A stretch of 64,000 bases of DNA from Mucilaginibacter sp. (GTDB lineage Bacteria > Bacteroidota > Bacteroidia > Sphingobacteriales > Sphingobacteriaceae), in contig JAQBOM010000028.1 of NCBI GenBank assembly GCA_028288025.1, positions 1 through 64,000 on the forward strand. The letters run 5' to 3'. Every line of letters starts with the position of its first letter. The first letter of the stretch is position 1. Shown here piece by piece: positions 12,043-48,458 of this stretch. Below the pieces are notes generated by a model. The model did not search any database. It had not been told where the DNA came from and saw only the letters and a list, made by a program, of their open reading frames with translations. The position numbers were made by a program, and so were the translations under genes.

Positions 12043-13491
12043 TTACCGGCCGAAGCTGGTAACTACCTGCTCGACGGTAAGCTTTTCCTGTACGCCGGTT
12101 TCCATATTTTTTACGGTTAACAGGCCGGTTTGCATTTCCTGGCTGCCGATGATGATCGTGTAGGGAATATGGTTATTGTTGGCGTAGTCCAGCTGTTTTT
12201 TGAGTTTGGCGCCTGCCGGGTATAGCTCGGCATTAACATCCTGCCGGCGCAGCTGCTGCAAAATAGGGAAGGCGAATTGCTCGCCTTCCTTATCCATGCA
12301 GCAGATAAGCAGCCGTGTTGCCTGGTCGGCTGCGGCCGGAAAAATATTCAGCTCTTCCATTACATCATAAATGCGGTCGGCGCCAAAGGATATGCCAACG
12401 CCTGTAAGCCCTTTTAACCCGAACATCCCGGTAAGGTCGTCGTAACGCCCGCCGCCGCCGATGCTGCCCATGGAAACCTCGTTGGTTTTTACTTCGAATA
12501 TCGCGCCGGTATAATAGTTTAAGCCGCGCGCAAGGGTGATGTCCAGTTCGCAGCTTGCAGTTTGCAGTCTGCAGCTGGCCAGGTAGTTTAAAACTTCTTC
12601 TACCTCGTCGCATCCTTTCAAGCCGATTGGCGAATTGGCCAGCGCGGCGCGCAGCTTTTCGAGCTTTTCGGTATTTGACCCCTGCAGCAAAATTACGGGC
12701 TCAATTATCTTAATATCATTTTCTGTAAACCCTTTTCCAAGCAACTCGTTTATCACGCCATTCAAACCGATCTTATCCAGTTTATCAATGGCGACAGTCA
12801 TATCAACTATGTTATCGACTTTATCTATAAGTTCGGCTATTCCTGATAGTATTTTTCTATTATTTATTTTTATGGTGAAATCTTTTAACCCCAGCTTGGT
12901 TAAAGCTTCATCGTAAATAAGTATAAATTCGGCTTCGTTGATGAGCGAATCGGAACCTACCACGTCGGCATCGCACTGGTAAAATTCGCGGTAACGGCCT
13001 TTTTGCGGCCTGTCGGCGCGCCAAACCGGTTGCACCTGGAAGCGCTTGAAAGGAAAAGTAATTTCGTTTTGGTGCATCACCACGTACCGGGCGAAGGGGA
13101 CGGTGAGATCGTAGCGGAGGGCTTTTTCGGCTTCAATAAGATTTCTGATAGGTTCGTTTAAATCAATCTCAATTTCCGAATCACTAGATGAATTAGTTGC
13201 TTCTTCTTTCGCTTTCCATATGCGTTCAATTACCTCAGAAGTAAACTTACTAAGTTCATTTTGATCAATAAAGTTTCCGGAATTCAATATCTTAAATATC
13301 AGCTTATCGCCCTCATCACCATACTTACCGGTTAAAGTTGAAATGTTTTCCATCGCCGGCGTTTCGATCTGCCGGTAGCCATATTTGCGAAAAACGCCTT
13401 TTATTGTATCAAAAATAAAATTGCGGCGCACCATTTCGGTTGGTGAAAAATCGCGGGTGCCTTTTGGTACAGATGGTTTGATGGATGCCAT
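12043..13491 (-). CDS. hisS: Histidyl-tRNA synthetase
   Basis: This class II synthetase charges tRNA-His. The 482 residues show motif 1 region FRKYGYRQIETPAMEN, YDLTVPFARYVVMH, motif 2 RPQKGRYREFYQCD, the HisRS signatures ARGLNYYTGAIFEV and GGGGRYDDL, motif 3 GVGISFGADR, and a C-terminal anticodon-binding domain (about 385-482). Two oddities are visible. Residues about 76-120 form a charged insert before EKALRYDLTVP. Residues 305-314 (ASCRLQTASC) are encoded by four heptamers related to GCAGTTT at 12550-12577, the same kind of word found in intergenic repeats. The catalytic parts are intact. Confidence 0.97.
   Translation of the reverse strand: MASIKPSVPKGTRDFSPTEMVRRNFIFDTIKGVFRKYGYRQIETPAMENISTLTGKYGDEGDKLIFKILNSGNFIDQNELSKFTSEVIERIWKAKEEATNSSSDSEIEIDLNEPIRNLIEAEKALRYDLTVPFARYVVMHQNEITFPFKRFQVQPVWRADRPQKGRYREFYQCDADVVGSDSLINEAEFILIYDEALTKLGLKDFTIKINNRKILSGIAELIDKVDNIVDMTVAIDKLDKIGLNGVINELLGKGFTENDIKIIEPVILLQGSNTEKLEKLRAALANSPIGLKGCDEVEEVLNYLASCRLQTASCELDITLARGLNYYTGAIFEVKTNEVSMGSIGGGGRYDDLTGMFGLKGLTGVGISFGADRIYDVMEELNIFPAAADQATRLLICCMDKEGEQFAFPILQQLRRQDVNAELYPAGAKLKKQLDYANNNHIPYTIIIGSQEMQTGLLTVKNMETGVQEKLTVEQVVTSFGR
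12550..12577. repeat. GCAGYTT heptamer tract inside hisS
   Basis: There are four uninterrupted 7-nt units beginning GCAG (consensus GCAGYYT) on the plus strand, coding on the minus strand for HisRS residues 305-314. The word matches the intergenic repeat after glmS at 43221-43311. The reading frame is kept. Confidence 0.8.
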
Positions 13492-18071: not shown

Positions 18072-18110
18072 GGAATATATGTTTTGCAGGGGCAAAGGTA
18101 GGGGTTTGAT

Positions 18111-18144
18111 TTCGGAATTCGGAATTTCGATTTCGGATTTGGAG
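18111..18144. repeat. TTCGGAA heptamer tract
   Basis: Tandem 7-nt words TTCGGAA, TTCGGAA and shorter variants lie in the gap between fumC and the TPR gene. No complementary arm is nearby. Confidence 0.6.
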
Positions 18145-32694: not shown

Positions 32695-32890
32695 GACGGT
32701 ATCAAGTAGTGAGTGATCAGTATCAAGCAGTTAGTATCAAGTATCAAGTATTTGTTTTTTGACGATCTTGCTACCATAGTCTTGCTACTTGTTACGAGAT
32801 AGTATCAAGTCGTTAGTATCAAGTATCAAGTGTTTGTTTTTTGGTGATTGTGCTACCATAGTCTTGCTGCTTGATACTAGTTACTTGCTA
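32695..32890. repeat. Tandem 82-nt repeat built of AGTATCA heptamers
   Basis: GTTAGTATCAAGTATCAAG begins at 32730 and again at 32812, a period of 82 nt. Each copy goes on to a TTTGTTTTTT run and GCTACCATAGTCTTGCT. Copy 2 can close a hairpin through CTTGATACT at 32870-32878. It fills the gap between rpmF and plsX. Confidence 0.8.
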
Positions 32891-33648: not shown

Positions 33649-34187
33649 ATGTAGGGATAAATATCAAATTTGAAAAGTGTTTTTTGGGATTAAATTTTAT
33701 GGGGTGAAACGATAGTCGAAGTGCTGTATAAGAACAGTATTTTTATATCGAAGGTCACCTTTATAAGAAATTCATCCGACCTTAAAAAACCGATCCACCT
33801 AAAACAGGCATGATGGCTGACGCCGAAACTGTAACTCAGGATGCCACATGCCGCAGCGGCTTAGCCGGAGTTTCTTTAAGATTGTTGGGAATAAGTGAGA
33901 GAAAGAGCCAAGATGCAAGGGACAAGAGCAAGAAGCAGGAGATAAGAGCCAAGAAGCAAGACCAGAAGAGCCAAAAAAAAGAACAGGAAACGCGAATCAT
34001 AGTTACCGGGATTGCTTACTGCCAAAATAATGACAGTGTTCCAGGTGTGTTCACCTGTATCCACCTGTACCGGGTGGTACACCAGTATCAAGTGACAACT
34101 TTTTCTGTTCCACTCTCAAAAATTGGAACACTTGAAATTTAACGAAATAATCTTTTGCCCCTTGTCGGCAGGCAGGTTTATCCTCAA
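33649..34187. other. 539-nt gap between pdxA and the DUF177 gene
   Basis: I see no convincing gene: the open frame 33810-34142 translates a Lys/Gln/Ser low-complexity stretch made by a heptamer tract (33903-33975). The region also has CACCTG-containing words around 34045-34085 with the partial inverted repeat GTACC/GGTAC. It ends at the pdxA stop. Confidence 0.6.
33903..33975. repeat. AAGAGCC heptamer tract
   Basis: About ten units of the form AAGNNNC (AAGAGCC, AAGATGC, and others), nearly all 7 nt and in register. Related words occur upstream of oxyR at 44930-45023. No complementary arm is nearby. Confidence 0.75.
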
Positions 34188-39839: not shown

Positions 39840-41243
39840 ATGAAATTTTTCCGGTTAGACTTATTGACCCTGTTGATAAGTCTTTTTATTTTAAATAGTT
39901 GTAAGAACCAGGGTACGGTAGGTTTAGGTCTAAATCCTTCCGCGCAGTTAAACGGCGCCCTTGTTGATACTTCAACTATTTTAACCAATACTGTGCTGGA
40001 CGATACGGTTATCACCACAGGCGCGTCTAAAATGCCTTTGGCTTATTTTAACGACCCGATATTTGGTTTAACAGAAGCGAATATAGCAACCAATCTCAAT
40101 TTACCCGGTTCTGCGGCTTATACACCACCAACCGGAACAATAGTTATCGACTCAGCCCGCCTTATACTGCAATATGCCGATGGCTTTTACGGTGATTCAA
40201 CGGCATCAAGCTATACGGTGAATGTATTTCAGCTGAATGAAAAATATAATAATAATACAGCTTATTACAATACCAAACAGTGGAATTATAATCAAAATGC
40301 TTTATTAGGGTCACTAACGTTTAATTCCAGAACCCATACTGCAATAAAGGTTTATAATATTATAGTTGGAAAGCCTGACACGTTGATCAGGGCAGTTCCC
40401 CAAATCCGGATCCCGATCAGCACTAATTTTATTAATGCCAATCTTTTCAGTGCAAGCACTGCTACCCTTGCCAATAACAACCTTTTTCAAAATTTGGTAA
40501 AGGGGTTATATGTTACGCTTGATAAGACTAAAACTACAGGGCCGGGTGGAGTATTTATGATCAAATCTGACACCTTAGCGGTATATTACAGGGCCAATAA
40601 CGGCACCACAATTGACACTGCTATTGTAAAACTGCCCGTATCAAGTTTGTCGGCGCAGATAAAGCATACTTATTCAGCAACCATCCAGGCCGAATTAAAT
40701 AATACTACCTCGTCAAGGGGAACGATTTATTTAGAAGGGCTTTCAGGTTTGCGGGCTAAGATCAGCTTCCCTAATTTGTTGGTAAACCTTCGGAATAACT
40801 TATTAAAAAAGGATAGTGATATCGTATTGAACAGGGCGGAATTAGTTGTTACGCCTGTTGCCGGTTCTGATATACCTTACAAGCCGGCGCCCAAATTGAC
40901 AATGTACCGGCTCGATCTGGCGCATCAGCGCATGGTTGTGGAAGATGCGAATATTGGAGACCCGCGTTCGGGAGGGGTTGCTGTTTTCGGGGGATATTAT
41001 GTCCCGACCTTAAAAAATTATCATTTCATAGTTACTGCTTACATGCAGGACCTGTTGAGCAACAAAACCGTAGATTACGGTACTTATATAGCACCGATAG
41101 ATACTACCAGCGCAAATTTTGGTGTTGGGTCACCTCCCGTTCTTTTATCGGCGGGAGCGCGGACCGTGGCTGGCGGCGGAGCAAATAAAGCCTCGCCATA
41201 CCAGATAAAATTGAATGTTATCTATACCAAAGTACATAGATAG
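39840..41243 (+). CDS. DUF4270-family lipoprotein
   Basis: The 467 residues are read from ATG 39840 (a TTG four codons upstream is the alternative). The signal peptide ends with a lipobox-like FILNSC. The long beta-rich body has GTVGLGLNPSAQL, FNDPIFGLTEANIATNLNLP, YNTKQWNYNQNALLG and NRAELVVTPVAGSDIPYKPA, as in the Bacteroidota DUF4270 family. The function is unknown; surface or periplasmic location. It starts 15 nt after the half glycogen synthase and ends just before a strong terminator. Confidence 0.88.
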   Translation: MKFFRLDLLTLLISLFILNSCKNQGTVGLGLNPSAQLNGALVDTSTILTNTVLDDTVITTGASKMPLAYFNDPIFGLTEANIATNLNLPGSAAYTPPTGTIVIDSARLILQYADGFYGDSTASSYTVNVFQLNEKYNNNTAYYNTKQWNYNQNALLGSLTFNSRTHTAIKVYNIIVGKPDTLIRAVPQIRIPISTNFINANLFSASTATLANNNLFQNLVKGLYVTLDKTKTTGPGGVFMIKSDTLAVYYRANNGTTIDTAIVKLPVSSLSAQIKHTYSATIQAELNNTTSSRGTIYLEGLSGLRAKISFPNLLVNLRNNLLKKDSDIVLNRAELVVTPVAGSDIPYKPAPKLTMYRLDLAHQRMVVEDANIGDPRSGGVAVFGGYYVPTLKNYHFIVTAYMQDLLSNKTVDYGTYIAPIDTTSANFGVGSPPVLLSAGARTVAGGGANKASPYQIKLNVIYTKVHR

Positions 41244-41259
41244 CCAATTTGAAAATATT

Positions 41260-41306
41260 AAAAGGCCCGAAGAAATGATTAAAATCATATCCTTCGGGCC
41301 TTTTTG
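41260..41306 (+). terminator. Intrinsic terminator after DUF4270
   Basis: AAAAGGCCCGAAG and CTTCGGGCC followed by TTTTT, with a loop that itself contains ATGATTAAAATCAT. It ends the upstream transcript before glmS. Confidence 0.88.
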
Positions 41307-41346
41307 GTTTATGACCTTTCGGTCCGCGACTTTCCAACTTTCTTGT

Positions 41347-41354
41347 TACTTTTG
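41347..41354 (+). promoter_or_regulatory. Putative -7 promoter element of glmS
   Basis: TACTTTTG within TTACTTTTGTTCCA, identical over 14 nt to the sequence upstream of the 9022 gene. It lies 26 nt before the glmS ATG, downstream of the DUF4270 terminator. Confidence 0.5.
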
Positions 41355-41379
41355 TTCCAATTATATTTATCAATTTTTT

Positions 41380-43215
41380 ATGTGCGGAATTGTCGGTTAC
41401 ATAGGTTACAGGGATGCTTACCCAATCATTATCAAAGGGCTTCACCGTTTAGAGTATCGCGGATACGACAGCGCAGGGATCGCTTTATTTGACAAACAGC
41501 TTAAGGTGTTCAAAAAGGCGGGAAAGGTTGTCGATCTGGAAAATTTCGTGAAAGATGTTGAGTTGGGCGGGAGTATCGGCATGGGCCACACACGTTGGGC
41601 AACGCACGGCGCTCCAAGTGACCGCAACTCTCATCCCCACTCGTCCGGCGACCGTAAGCTTACCATTATTCATAATGGTATAATCGAAAATTACGGTATT
41701 ATTAAGGAAACGCTGATCAATAAAGGGCATGTTTTTAAAAGTGATACCGATACGGAAGTCCTGATCCACCTTGTTGAAGATATACAAGAGGAAACCGGCC
41801 TCGACCTTCGCGAGGCGGTTCGGGTAGCGCTAAATAAGGTAATAGGCGCCTACGCCATCGTCATCATGAGCGCTGATGAACCGGACCTGCTGATCGCGGC
41901 CCGAAAAGGCAGCCCAATGGTTATTGGCGTTGGAAAGGGCGAGTATTTTATAGCATCGGACGCTACGCCAATTGTAGAATACACCAAAAATGTGATCTAT
42001 TTAAACGATAATGAAATAGCCTTTGTACGCAGGGAAGACTTGCTGATCAAGAATATCGACAACACCGTACAAACCCCCTACATTCATGAGCTTGATCTTA
42101 AGTTAGAAATGCTTGAGAAAGGCGGGTATGACCACTTTATGCTTAAGGAAATTTATGAGCAGCCGAGGTCAATACGCGATTGTATGCGCGGCCGTATCTA
42201 TCCACAGGAAGGCAAGGTGCAGCTTGGCGGAATAAAGGAGTACACCGAGAAATTAAAAAATATCGACCGTATCATCATTGTAGCGTGCGGCACGTCGTGG
42301 CACGCGGGTCTTGTTGGCGAATATTTGATTGAGGAATATGCCCGTGTTCCCGTAGAAGTGGAATATGCATCGGAATTTAGGTATCGTAATCCAATCATTA
42401 CCGAAAAGGACCTGGTTATCGCTATTTCGCAATCAGGTGAAACAGCCGATACTATGGCAGCCATTGAGCTGGCCAAAGAAAAAGGTGCGACCATTTTTGG
42501 TATTTGCAATGTTGTAGGCGCTTCAATACCGCGTACCACCCATGCCGGCGTTTATACACACGCAGGCCCCGAAATTGGCGTGGCTTCAACCAAAGCGTTT
42601 ACCGCGCAAGTCACTGTATTAACGCTAATGGCCTTTTATATTGCCCAGCAAAGAGGAGCCATTACGCAAAGTAAGCTCGTCGAGCTTTTAACCGGTTTAA
42701 ATGAAATACCTGAGTTAGTTGAAAAAGCTTTAAAATCCGATGATCATATTAAAAAGATAGCGGCAAAGTTTAAGGATTCTACCAACTGCTTGTTTTTGGG
42801 CCGGGGCAGCTCGTTCCCTGTGGCGCTTGAGGGCGCTTTGAAATTGAAGGAAATCTCTTACATCCACGCAGAAGGATATCCGGCAGCTGAAATGAAACAT
42901 GGCCCAATTGCCTTAATTGATGCCGATATGCCGGTTGTATTTATCGCAACCAAAGATTCGTCATACGAAAAAGTAGTCAGCAATATACAGGAAGTGAAAG
43001 CCCGTAGCGGACATGTGATCGCCATCGTTACTGAAGGAGATACTGAAGTGAAAGGGATGGCAGATTATGTTATTGAGATACCAGCAAGCGGCGAGGCTTT
43101 TGTACCATTACTGGCAACCATCCCGCTTCAGTTACTGGCCTACCACATTGCGGTAATGCGCGACTGTAATGTTGATCAGCCACGGAATTTGGCGAAGTCG
43201 GTAACAGTGGAGTAG
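41380..43215 (+). CDS. glmS: Glutamine-fructose-6-phosphate aminotransferase (isomerizing)
   Basis: It makes glucosamine-6-phosphate for cell wall and LPS. The 611 residues start MCGIVGYIGYRDAYPIIIKG, so the Cys nucleophile is residue 2 after Met removal; the 55-codon upstream extension is rejected for that reason. The glutaminase domain (1-240: GHTRWATHGAPSDRNSHPH) is followed by two SIS domains (IIIVACGTSWHAGLVGEYL, AISQSGETADTMAAIELAK, GRGSSFPVALEGALKLKEIS). The conserved end NVDQPRNLAKSVTVE is present. Confidence 0.97.
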   Translation: MCGIVGYIGYRDAYPIIIKGLHRLEYRGYDSAGIALFDKQLKVFKKAGKVVDLENFVKDVELGGSIGMGHTRWATHGAPSDRNSHPHSSGDRKLTIIHNGIIENYGIIKETLINKGHVFKSDTDTEVLIHLVEDIQEETGLDLREAVRVALNKVIGAYAIVIMSADEPDLLIAARKGSPMVIGVGKGEYFIASDATPIVEYTKNVIYLNDNEIAFVRREDLLIKNIDNTVQTPYIHELDLKLEMLEKGGYDHFMLKEIYEQPRSIRDCMRGRIYPQEGKVQLGGIKEYTEKLKNIDRIIIVACGTSWHAGLVGEYLIEEYARVPVEVEYASEFRYRNPIITEKDLVIAISQSGETADTMAAIELAKEKGATIFGICNVVGASIPRTTHAGVYTHAGPEIGVASTKAFTAQVTVLTLMAFYIAQQRGAITQSKLVELLTGLNEIPELVEKALKSDDHIKKIAAKFKDSTNCLFLGRGSSFPVALEGALKLKEISYIHAEGYPAAEMKHGPIALIDADMPVVFIATKDSSYEKVVSNIQEVKARSGHVIAIVTEGDTEVKGMADYVIEIPASGEAFVPLLATIPLQLLAYHIAVMRDCNVDQPRNLAKSVTVE

Positions 43216-43220
43216 TTTTT

Positions 43221-43311
43221 CAGTTTGCAGTGAGCTGTTTGCAGTAAAAAGGAAAGGCGGTTCGCAGTTGGTATACCCAACTGCAAACTGCCTGCTATAA
43301 ACTGCAAACTG
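43221..43311. repeat. GCAGTTT-word hairpins between glmS and katA
   Basis: CAGTTTG, CAGTGAG and CTGTTTG units at 43221-43245; the right side near 43301-43311 is ACTGCAAACTG. A small internal hairpin GCAGTTGG/CCAACTGC lies at 43264-43284. The word is the one that also occurs inside hisS. Confidence 0.75.
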
Positions 43312-44929: not shown

Positions 44930-45023
44930 TAGAAGCAAGAGTCAAGATAGTAAAAAGCAAGAACAATTGGTCATTATCCTCATTCTTCTTGTCTTGTCTC
45001 TTGGTTCTTGCTTCTTGACTCTA
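44930..45023. repeat. AAGCAAGA-word hairpin upstream of oxyR
   Basis: Left arm 44930-44964 (AGAAGCAAGAGTCAAGA, AAAGCAAGAAC) and right arm 45004-45022 (GTTCTTGCTTCTTGACTCT) pair by words. It occupies the oxyR leader. Confidence 0.65.
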
Positions 45024-48002: not shown

Positions 48003-48368
48003 ATGCGATTAAAATTTACCGCCTATTTGATGTGCTTAGTGATTATCGGGATGTGGTCGTGCCGCAATTCCAATAAAAGTGCTAAAAATGTGGTTTATAA
48101 AGGCGTATACAGCTTTGGCCCCGAGGTGAAATCATTTAAGGATTGTGAAACCGGCAGCGAATTTTGGGCGACAGACAGTTCGAAGCAGTTGGAACTAAAA
48201 TACTCGCAATTGAACTTTGAAAAACCTTATGTGCCTGTTTATGTTGAAGTAGAGGGCGTAAAAATACATTCGGGCAAAGATGGTATGGGCTCTGAGTATG
48301 ACAGTACGCTCGTGGTAAAAAAATTGATCAAGATCACGAAAGAAATTCCGCAGGATATGTGCAACTGA
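48003..48368 (+). CDS. Small lipoprotein (121 aa), NlpE-like appearance
   Basis: A signal peptide with the Cys in GMWSC (Cys20) is followed by a compact domain with YKGVYSFGPEVKSFKDCETG, FWATDSSKQLELKYSQ and PVYVEVEGVKI. This order resembles the OB-like domain seen in NlpE-type lipoproteins, but the assignment is weak. It lies 9 nt after the LolE-like permease, probably in one transcript. Function unknown. Confidence 0.7.
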   Translation: MRLKFTAYLMCLVIIGMWSCRNSNKSAKNVVYKGVYSFGPEVKSFKDCETGSEFWATDSSKQLELKYSQLNFEKPYVPVYVEVEGVKIHSGKDGMGSEYDSTLVVKKLIKITKEIPQDMCN

Positions 48369-48454
48369 AGCTGAAAGCAAAAAGCCGAAAGCAAAAAAAA
48401 TATTAACCAGAGAACGCGTAAGCTTTAAGCTTTCTGCTTTCACCTTTAAGCTTA
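48367..48454. repeat. GCTGAAA-word hairpin before rbfA
   Basis: Left arm 48367-48392 has 7-nt units GCTGAAA, GCAAAAA and GCCGAAA-like; right arm 48419-48454 has TTTAAGC, TTTCTGC and TTTCACC-like units. The arms are complementary by words. Confidence 0.7.
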
Positions 48455-48458
48455 AAAC

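Follow-up and report, generated by a model that had tools for sequence, protein, structure and literature searches.

Heptamer repeat words in a loop of histidyl-tRNA synthetase and in other core-gene loops of Mucilaginibacter

How does a short repeat that lies mostly between genes come to be spelled, in frame, inside an essential enzyme? The question is raised by hisS of a Mucilaginibacter sp. genome, located at 12043..13491 on the minus strand of the window (the whole stretch analysed here, 64,000 nucleotides of contig JAQBOM010000028.1). This ORF of 482 aa matches the histidyl-tRNA synthetase (HisRS) model TIGR00442 with 392 bits against a cut-off of 286.75. Tandem Repeats Finder identifies a period-7 array at 12544–12574 on the same strand (4.4 copies, 83% matches, coding word AACTGCA, lag-7 score 14.0), the coding strand of which reads CTGCAGACTGCAAACTGCAAGCTGCGAACTG and encodes SCRLQTASCEL, residues 306–316. 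Within it the four codons of L309-Q310-T311-A312 (12556..12567, minus strand, CTGCAAACTGCA; LQTA below) make up about two heptamer units. A few residues further on in the protein is the active-site block ARGLNYYTG (residues 321–329; 12505..12531, minus strand), of which A321, R322, G323, L324, Y326, Y327, T328 and G329 are invariant in a 27-row HisRS alignment. A first-pass annotation of this DNA had reported 7-nt units in the coding region of hisS just before that block, and the gene, the units and their position are all borne out. The array has no inverted partner (score 6, against a threshold of at least 11 within 160 bp), and there are no stops within it among the genus matches listed.

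In an AlphaFold model of HisRS (27-row alignment; mean pLDDT 77.1), the array spans the end of a predicted helix (288–305), a turn (306–312) and the start of a strand (313–316). The model is poor at 46–81, 101–130 and 158–168 (pLDDT below 50), and the turn is confidently modelled (92 for residues 301–310, 91 for 311–320). Residue diversity is 0.49 in this linker versus 0.17 in the rest of HisRS, leaving out linker 1. The latter (residues about 83–123; 13123..13245, minus strand) is the other length-variable region of the protein; it carries no heptamer array here and does carry arrays in some relatives. Its length as bounded is 41 aa in the window genome, and it reaches 131, 78 and 77 aa at L214, L211 and L182 (L and G numbers are our handles for loci and genomes) versus about 20 in many sequences, the inserts being non-repetitive. 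A palindromic insert in linker 1 was considered and set aside, as no long hairpin was evident by eye, judged without a null, in folds of the 14 longest linkers, that of the window and a few others.

Heptamers are dispersed well beyond hisS. GCAGTTT occurs 26 times in the window compared to 11.05 expected, a count reached in none of 100 shuffles, and the AACTGCA pattern has 107 matches genome-wide versus 7 for its reversed control. The repeat that the first-pass annotation had noted after glmS (ORF 41215–43215, TIGR01135) is present as an intergenic inverted pair, with a left arm at about 43221..43245 (minus strand) and a right arm of AACTGCA units at 43279..43311 (plus strand; Tandem Repeats Finder), preceding a convergent catalase-like gene (NF008422, below the model cut-off). 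Period-7 arrays of other words lie elsewhere in the window (inverted pairs at 1689–1761, 44931–45017 and 48368–48456; also 33898–33974 and 18108–18140), and 32719–32877 holds 1.9 copies of an 82-bp unit containing AGTATCA heptamers. Our lag scan covered 1.264 Mb (28%) of the genome (G000; 4.45 Mb, 55 contigs) and found 68 lag-7 segments scoring at least 12, compared to 2, 17, 12, 0 and 2 at the control lags 5, 8, 10, 11 and 13; the multiples 14 and 21 gave 51 and 31. The 7-nt period is therefore dominant, and the placement dispersed and mostly intergenic (37 segments between genes, 20 at the edges of ORFs and 11 within greedy ORFs), both of which characterise STRR and TAACTGA-type repeats. Inverted partners scoring at least 11 within 160 bp accompany 22 of the 37 intergenic, 11 of the 20 ORF-edge and 7 of the 11 intra-ORF arrays, compared to 12/135 in a mismatched-flank control. 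One ORF elsewhere in the genome (G000:C9:209765-211027, minus strand) begins with 17 signal-peptide-like residues, MKLLKYLLPFAFYLLPL, encoded by a CCTTTTG/CCTTTCG heptamer array with an inverted partner nearby, and its start codon may be misplaced.

The array in hisS could be a coincidence, in which a partly conserved LQTA-type peptide is written in its usual codons, these happen to spell two heptamer units, and the remainder is chance singled out by a reader. Synonymous redraws of the same peptide reach the observed lag-7 score with p = 0.0007 (4,000 draws). Because the earlier reader picked an outlier, a test across the clade is fairer, and for this we used 228 hisS loci minus 16 duplicates: 104 distinct genus sequences (one from a named record, the others from 103 of the 142 genus genomes that gave a match), 52 from other Sphingobacteriales (named records and 45 genomes of other family genera, chosen from the better-scoring matches listed and hence not a random sample) and 56 more distant ones, mostly Bacteroidota. 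Scores of at least 12 at the linker occur in 9 of the 104 Mucilaginibacter sequences against a null mean of 0.34 (maximum 3 in 500 simulations), and in 9 of the 52 other Sphingobacteriales against 0.10 (maximum 1 in 500 simulations). No sequence scores 10 or more there at lags 5, 8, 10 or 11; at a threshold of at least 8, lag 8 yields 1/104 (null 0.05) and lag 10 a small excess (2/104, null 0.02). Over the whole of hisS in all 212 sequences, 28 lag-7 segments score at least 12, with 18 in linker 2 (that of the array), 7 in linker 1 and 3 immediately ahead of the latter, at residue 81, while the control lags yield none (5, 8, 10 and 11) or one (13). The DNA of hisS fits the heptamer beyond what its peptide dictates. 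Coincidence gains something from the recurrence of LQTA and of a single linker length within the genus (see below), from the scarcity of genus sequences scoring at least 8 (17/104) and from the score of 4.3 that redrawn codons already average. It is strained by an excess that 500 simulations never reached in either group, by the confinement of hisS arrays to the two linkers or just beside them, and by the other words that occupy the same site outside the genus, and we regard it as unlikely. In-frame AAATCTCAAACCTCAAATCTCAAACC heptamer arrays also occur in hisS linker 1 of L087 and L110 (Prevotellaceae/Prevotella, outside Sphingobacteriales).

The turn of HisRS holds different words in different lineages, namely AACTGCA, CTCAATA, CTCATAC, AATCTCA, CAACTGA and CTCAGAC. 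CTCAATA is found at L045 (Daejeonella), CTCATAC at L042, CTCAGAC at L241, AATCTCA-type words at L235, L221, L124, L225 and L220 (the last scoring 11.5, below 12), and CAACTGA at L242 and L126 (the latter 8.5, again below 12). Most word carriers outside Mucilaginibacter belong to one genus (g12), placed by the tree with Pedobacter nanyangensis (L047); the closest pair, L242 and L235, is 86.1% identical in nucleotides outside the linkers and has a 16 aa core in both members, and the words differ. Strong arrays are scattered over several parts of a tree from which the linkers were excluded; two of their carriers, L196 and L011, are long branches of uncertain position.

Words at the turn are also found elsewhere in the genomes that carry them. 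We counted words in 22 genomes, allowing 3 mismatches at most, hisS itself included and the reversed word serving as control; the own hisS words of G167 and G174 were left out. In all 14 array genomes with a tested word, the hisS word occurs elsewhere in the same genome, but no more than 9 of them have it as the most frequent of the five words tested. TACCTCA, the hisS word of G237, matches 47 times in that genome, where its reversed control matches 5 times, and no more than 4 times in any of the 21 others. TACTCAA, that of G218, has 30 matches there and 0–4 in seven Mucilaginibacter, and is also frequent in G237 (54) and G350 (29), both of which have other words in hisS. CAACTGA is only slightly more frequent than its reversed control (12 vs 6 in G350, 14 vs 5 in G254). 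Word abundance alone does not account for the hisS array, since G304 has 59 AACTGCA matches and no hisS array, and the own hisS word of G006 (L196) is rare (7 matches, 2 of them hisS) where AATCTCA has 53.

The first-pass annotation took the array as a sign of active insertion or expansion, and a version of this, in which slippage added heptamer units inside hisS in this lineage, was weighed against linker length. The compared linker region is 18 residues long in all 104 distinct Mucilaginibacter hisS sequences, and no gap is needed at the array site to align the HisRS structure 6nhi, which together rule out insertion in hisS within the genus; steps of 7 or 21 nt between relatives, as the annotation expected, are absent from the 104. 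L026, the nearest relative in the set (83.5% identity outside), has a linker of equal length, in which 8 of the 36 nucleotides are not those of the window. These three results indicate that the changes in the hisS array were of a substitution-like kind. Of the 104 genus sequences, 46 contain LQTA and others carry forms such as SFTLQKATVELDI; the motif is missing from all of the 52 other Sphingobacteriales and the 56 more distant sequences. The annotation's view that relatives have unrelated sequence here is thus correct outside the genus and not within it, and the conserved peptide that it named as evidence against itself exists in part of the genus and not across genera. Slippage finds some room outside the genus, where the region varies from 18 to 33 aa in the 52 other Sphingobacteriales (15 to 28 in the 56 distant sequences) and some of the varying linkers have arrays, but two of these, L042 and L045, exceed 18 aa by 9 and 15 nt, neither a multiple of 7. 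We therefore consider slippage at hisS improbable. The part of the insertion claim that survives concerns other genes, in which arrays do turn over.

Seven of the 11 intra-ORF arrays of the scan are in family-confirmed genes: hisS, leuS, ispG (three arrays), mqnB and a PF02621 menaquinone-biosynthesis gene of the mqnA/mqnD family without an NCBIfam match; the remaining four lie close to ORF starts that are doubtful, or within unconfirmed ORFs. mqnB and the PF02621 gene, both with in-frame heptamers, are adjacent (G000:C52:39039-40651). Among ispG orthologs (the best-scoring 30 of 60 genomes searched), lag-7 arrays of at least 12 occur in 23/30 at loop 1 (null 0.32) and 16/30 at loop 2 (null 0.12), all 52 lag-7 segments lie within these two loops, and 14/30 have an inverted repeat of at least 11 in loop 1. 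The words vary by species, including AAAGGCG/ACCTTTC, AGCTTTC, GTCCATG, AAGTCAA, ACTCACC and AATCTCA. Arrays are also found in 5/30 leuS orthologs (30 of 31 genomes searched; null 0.07), with one segment (L389) outside the named loop, and, for a set made up of the own genome and 20 of 45 relatives, in 4/21 for mqnB (null 0.32) and 7/21 for the PF02621 gene (null 0.12). The mqnB and leuS loops vary in length among relatives, 4 of 20 being about 20 residues shorter at the array loop of mqnB. The three closest ispG pairs are 93.9, 92.3 and 92.0% identical outside the loops; inserts are shared in L345/L348 and L342/L343, and are unrelated in both loops of L357/L361 (the 92.0% pair), of which L361 has a non-heptamer palindromic element and L357 a weak array (11.0). 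Other core-gene loops of the same genome therefore carry heptamers, and the words or inserts differ at the same loop in relatives. PF01797 (Y1 transposase, the partner of REP/RAYT-type mobilised palindromes and considered here as a driver) is found in 37 of 41 genus genomes, with 2 matches in the own genome; the four without it include G018, whose ispG loop still carries an array.

Recurring palindromic elements were also observed in frame, in ispG loops (L356, L361, L353, L355) and in the leuS loop (L372, L375, L393, L395, L373, L390). They translate to SPTQPSPEGRA...KVSPTGGDLEGA and EASPKSSPKERTS...NSLSFGEGRGEA forms, and occupy loops in which other species have heptamer arrays.

Such elements, together with the excess of inverted partners over the control, lend some weight to a further explanation, that a mobile palindromic element was inserted in frame, as in Rickettsia, and that the array is one of its arms. 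Rickettsia palindromic elements are described as insertions roughly 150 bp long, each element with its own conserved peptide (PMC10969869), and the present arrays resemble them, as there described, in being repeated DNA kept in frame in unrelated genes. They differ from that description in two ways: the heptamer arms have a word in common but mostly unrelated spacers between them, and hisS shows no partner arm, no insertion and no arm-plus-spacer length jump within the genus. Spacers were compared for the 37 of 45 collected inverted pairs in which they measured at least 15 nt: 16/666 comparisons score at least 10 versus 39/1998 for random intergenic pieces, and 2/666 score at least 14 versus 0/1998. 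The copies thus share mainly the word and not an element, transposition of a fixed heptamer element gains little from the comparison, and no fixed element appears to be copied. For hisS we hold the explanation to be very improbable. Selection for the heptamer-coded peptide, convergent through a function of the turn in HisRS, is the least probable of all, as the excess persists with the peptide fixed, the peptides of different words are wholly different and most relatives have no strong array, even if the peptides are polar and the arrays examined stop-free.

We consider it somewhat probable that permissive loops receive in-frame copies of dispersed heptamer words, and that the hisS array is one such local copy, neutral in length and partly decayed. 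Short heptamer patches would be copied between dispersed arrays and loops in which a few bases match the word beforehand, either by template switching primed by microhomology or by short-patch gene conversion, and copies would be retained only where they are in frame, free of stops and in a tolerant loop, with selection removing the others. At hisS the LQTA codons may have been the seed, the bases changing with no change in length, and the array may now be decaying. We propose that the heptamer inside HisRS is tolerated, and propose no function for it. Several observations weigh against copying. Plain point substitution would also give a constant length; the match between hisS words and genome words is incomplete (9/14, with G006 and G304 as exceptions); the hisS array lacks an inverted partner, unlike many intergenic arrays; lag 10 also gives its small excess at the lower threshold; and two of the three closest ispG pairs share their inserts. 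Among the sequences compared, which include no strain-level pairs, no copying event was caught.

To our knowledge, dispersed bacterial heptamer repeats have no agreed origin. The arrays resemble the STRR heptanucleotides of filamentous Cyanobacteria, which are dispersed tandem heptamers, and we know of no coding-loop turnover in STRRs. In phase-variable simple sequence repeats (contingency loci) a tandem repeat also lies within a coding region; unit number varies in these and switches the frame, whereas hisS shows no length variation in the genus. Our literature search reached few subscription journals; among the titles and abstract openings listed, none describes core Bacteroidota enzymes with heptamer arrays in their loops, and none bears on heptamers or palindromes inserted into coding sequence in Bacteroidetes. 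From Beggiatoaceae, Cyanobacteria and five Bacteroidetes, direct heptamer repeats like TAACTGA have been reported, and most differences between two close Cyanothece strains are indels in steps of 7 nt (MacGregor 2015, PMC4679880). As portrayed in that report, those repeats share with ours tandem 7-nt units, dispersal, mostly intergenic and sometimes coding placement, and several heptamers per genome. Its coding cases in the main genome are mostly short hypothetical proteins or protein ends, whereas the Mucilaginibacter arrays lie in interior loops of core enzymes, with words differing at fixed sites and often as inverted pairs. Heptamer-derived satellites are mentioned in Bacteria in an excerpt that does not name Bacteroidetes (PMC6749651), and PARCELs are described in PMC2996958.

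A wider and more doubtful reading is that a self-spreading heptamer-writing process operates in Sphingobacteriaceae, by which interchangeable words are written and rewritten in the same loops of HisRS, LeuRS, IspG, MqnB and the MqnA/MqnD-family protein, the arrays often forming inverted pairs without a common core. If this were true, an enzyme or repair route working in 7-nt steps would copy or template the word with no transposed element, and an enzyme that itself steps by 7 nt is a bolder possibility still. As the same turn and other core-enzyme loops use varied words, the repeat seems to spread through genes in use with no visible damage to them. Core-enzyme loops record the heptamer process at sites where frame, stops and homology give an exact alignment, so that step size, word source and replacement rate become measurable. 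The finding suggests a route by which non-coding repeat DNA may be turned into protein sequence in core genes.
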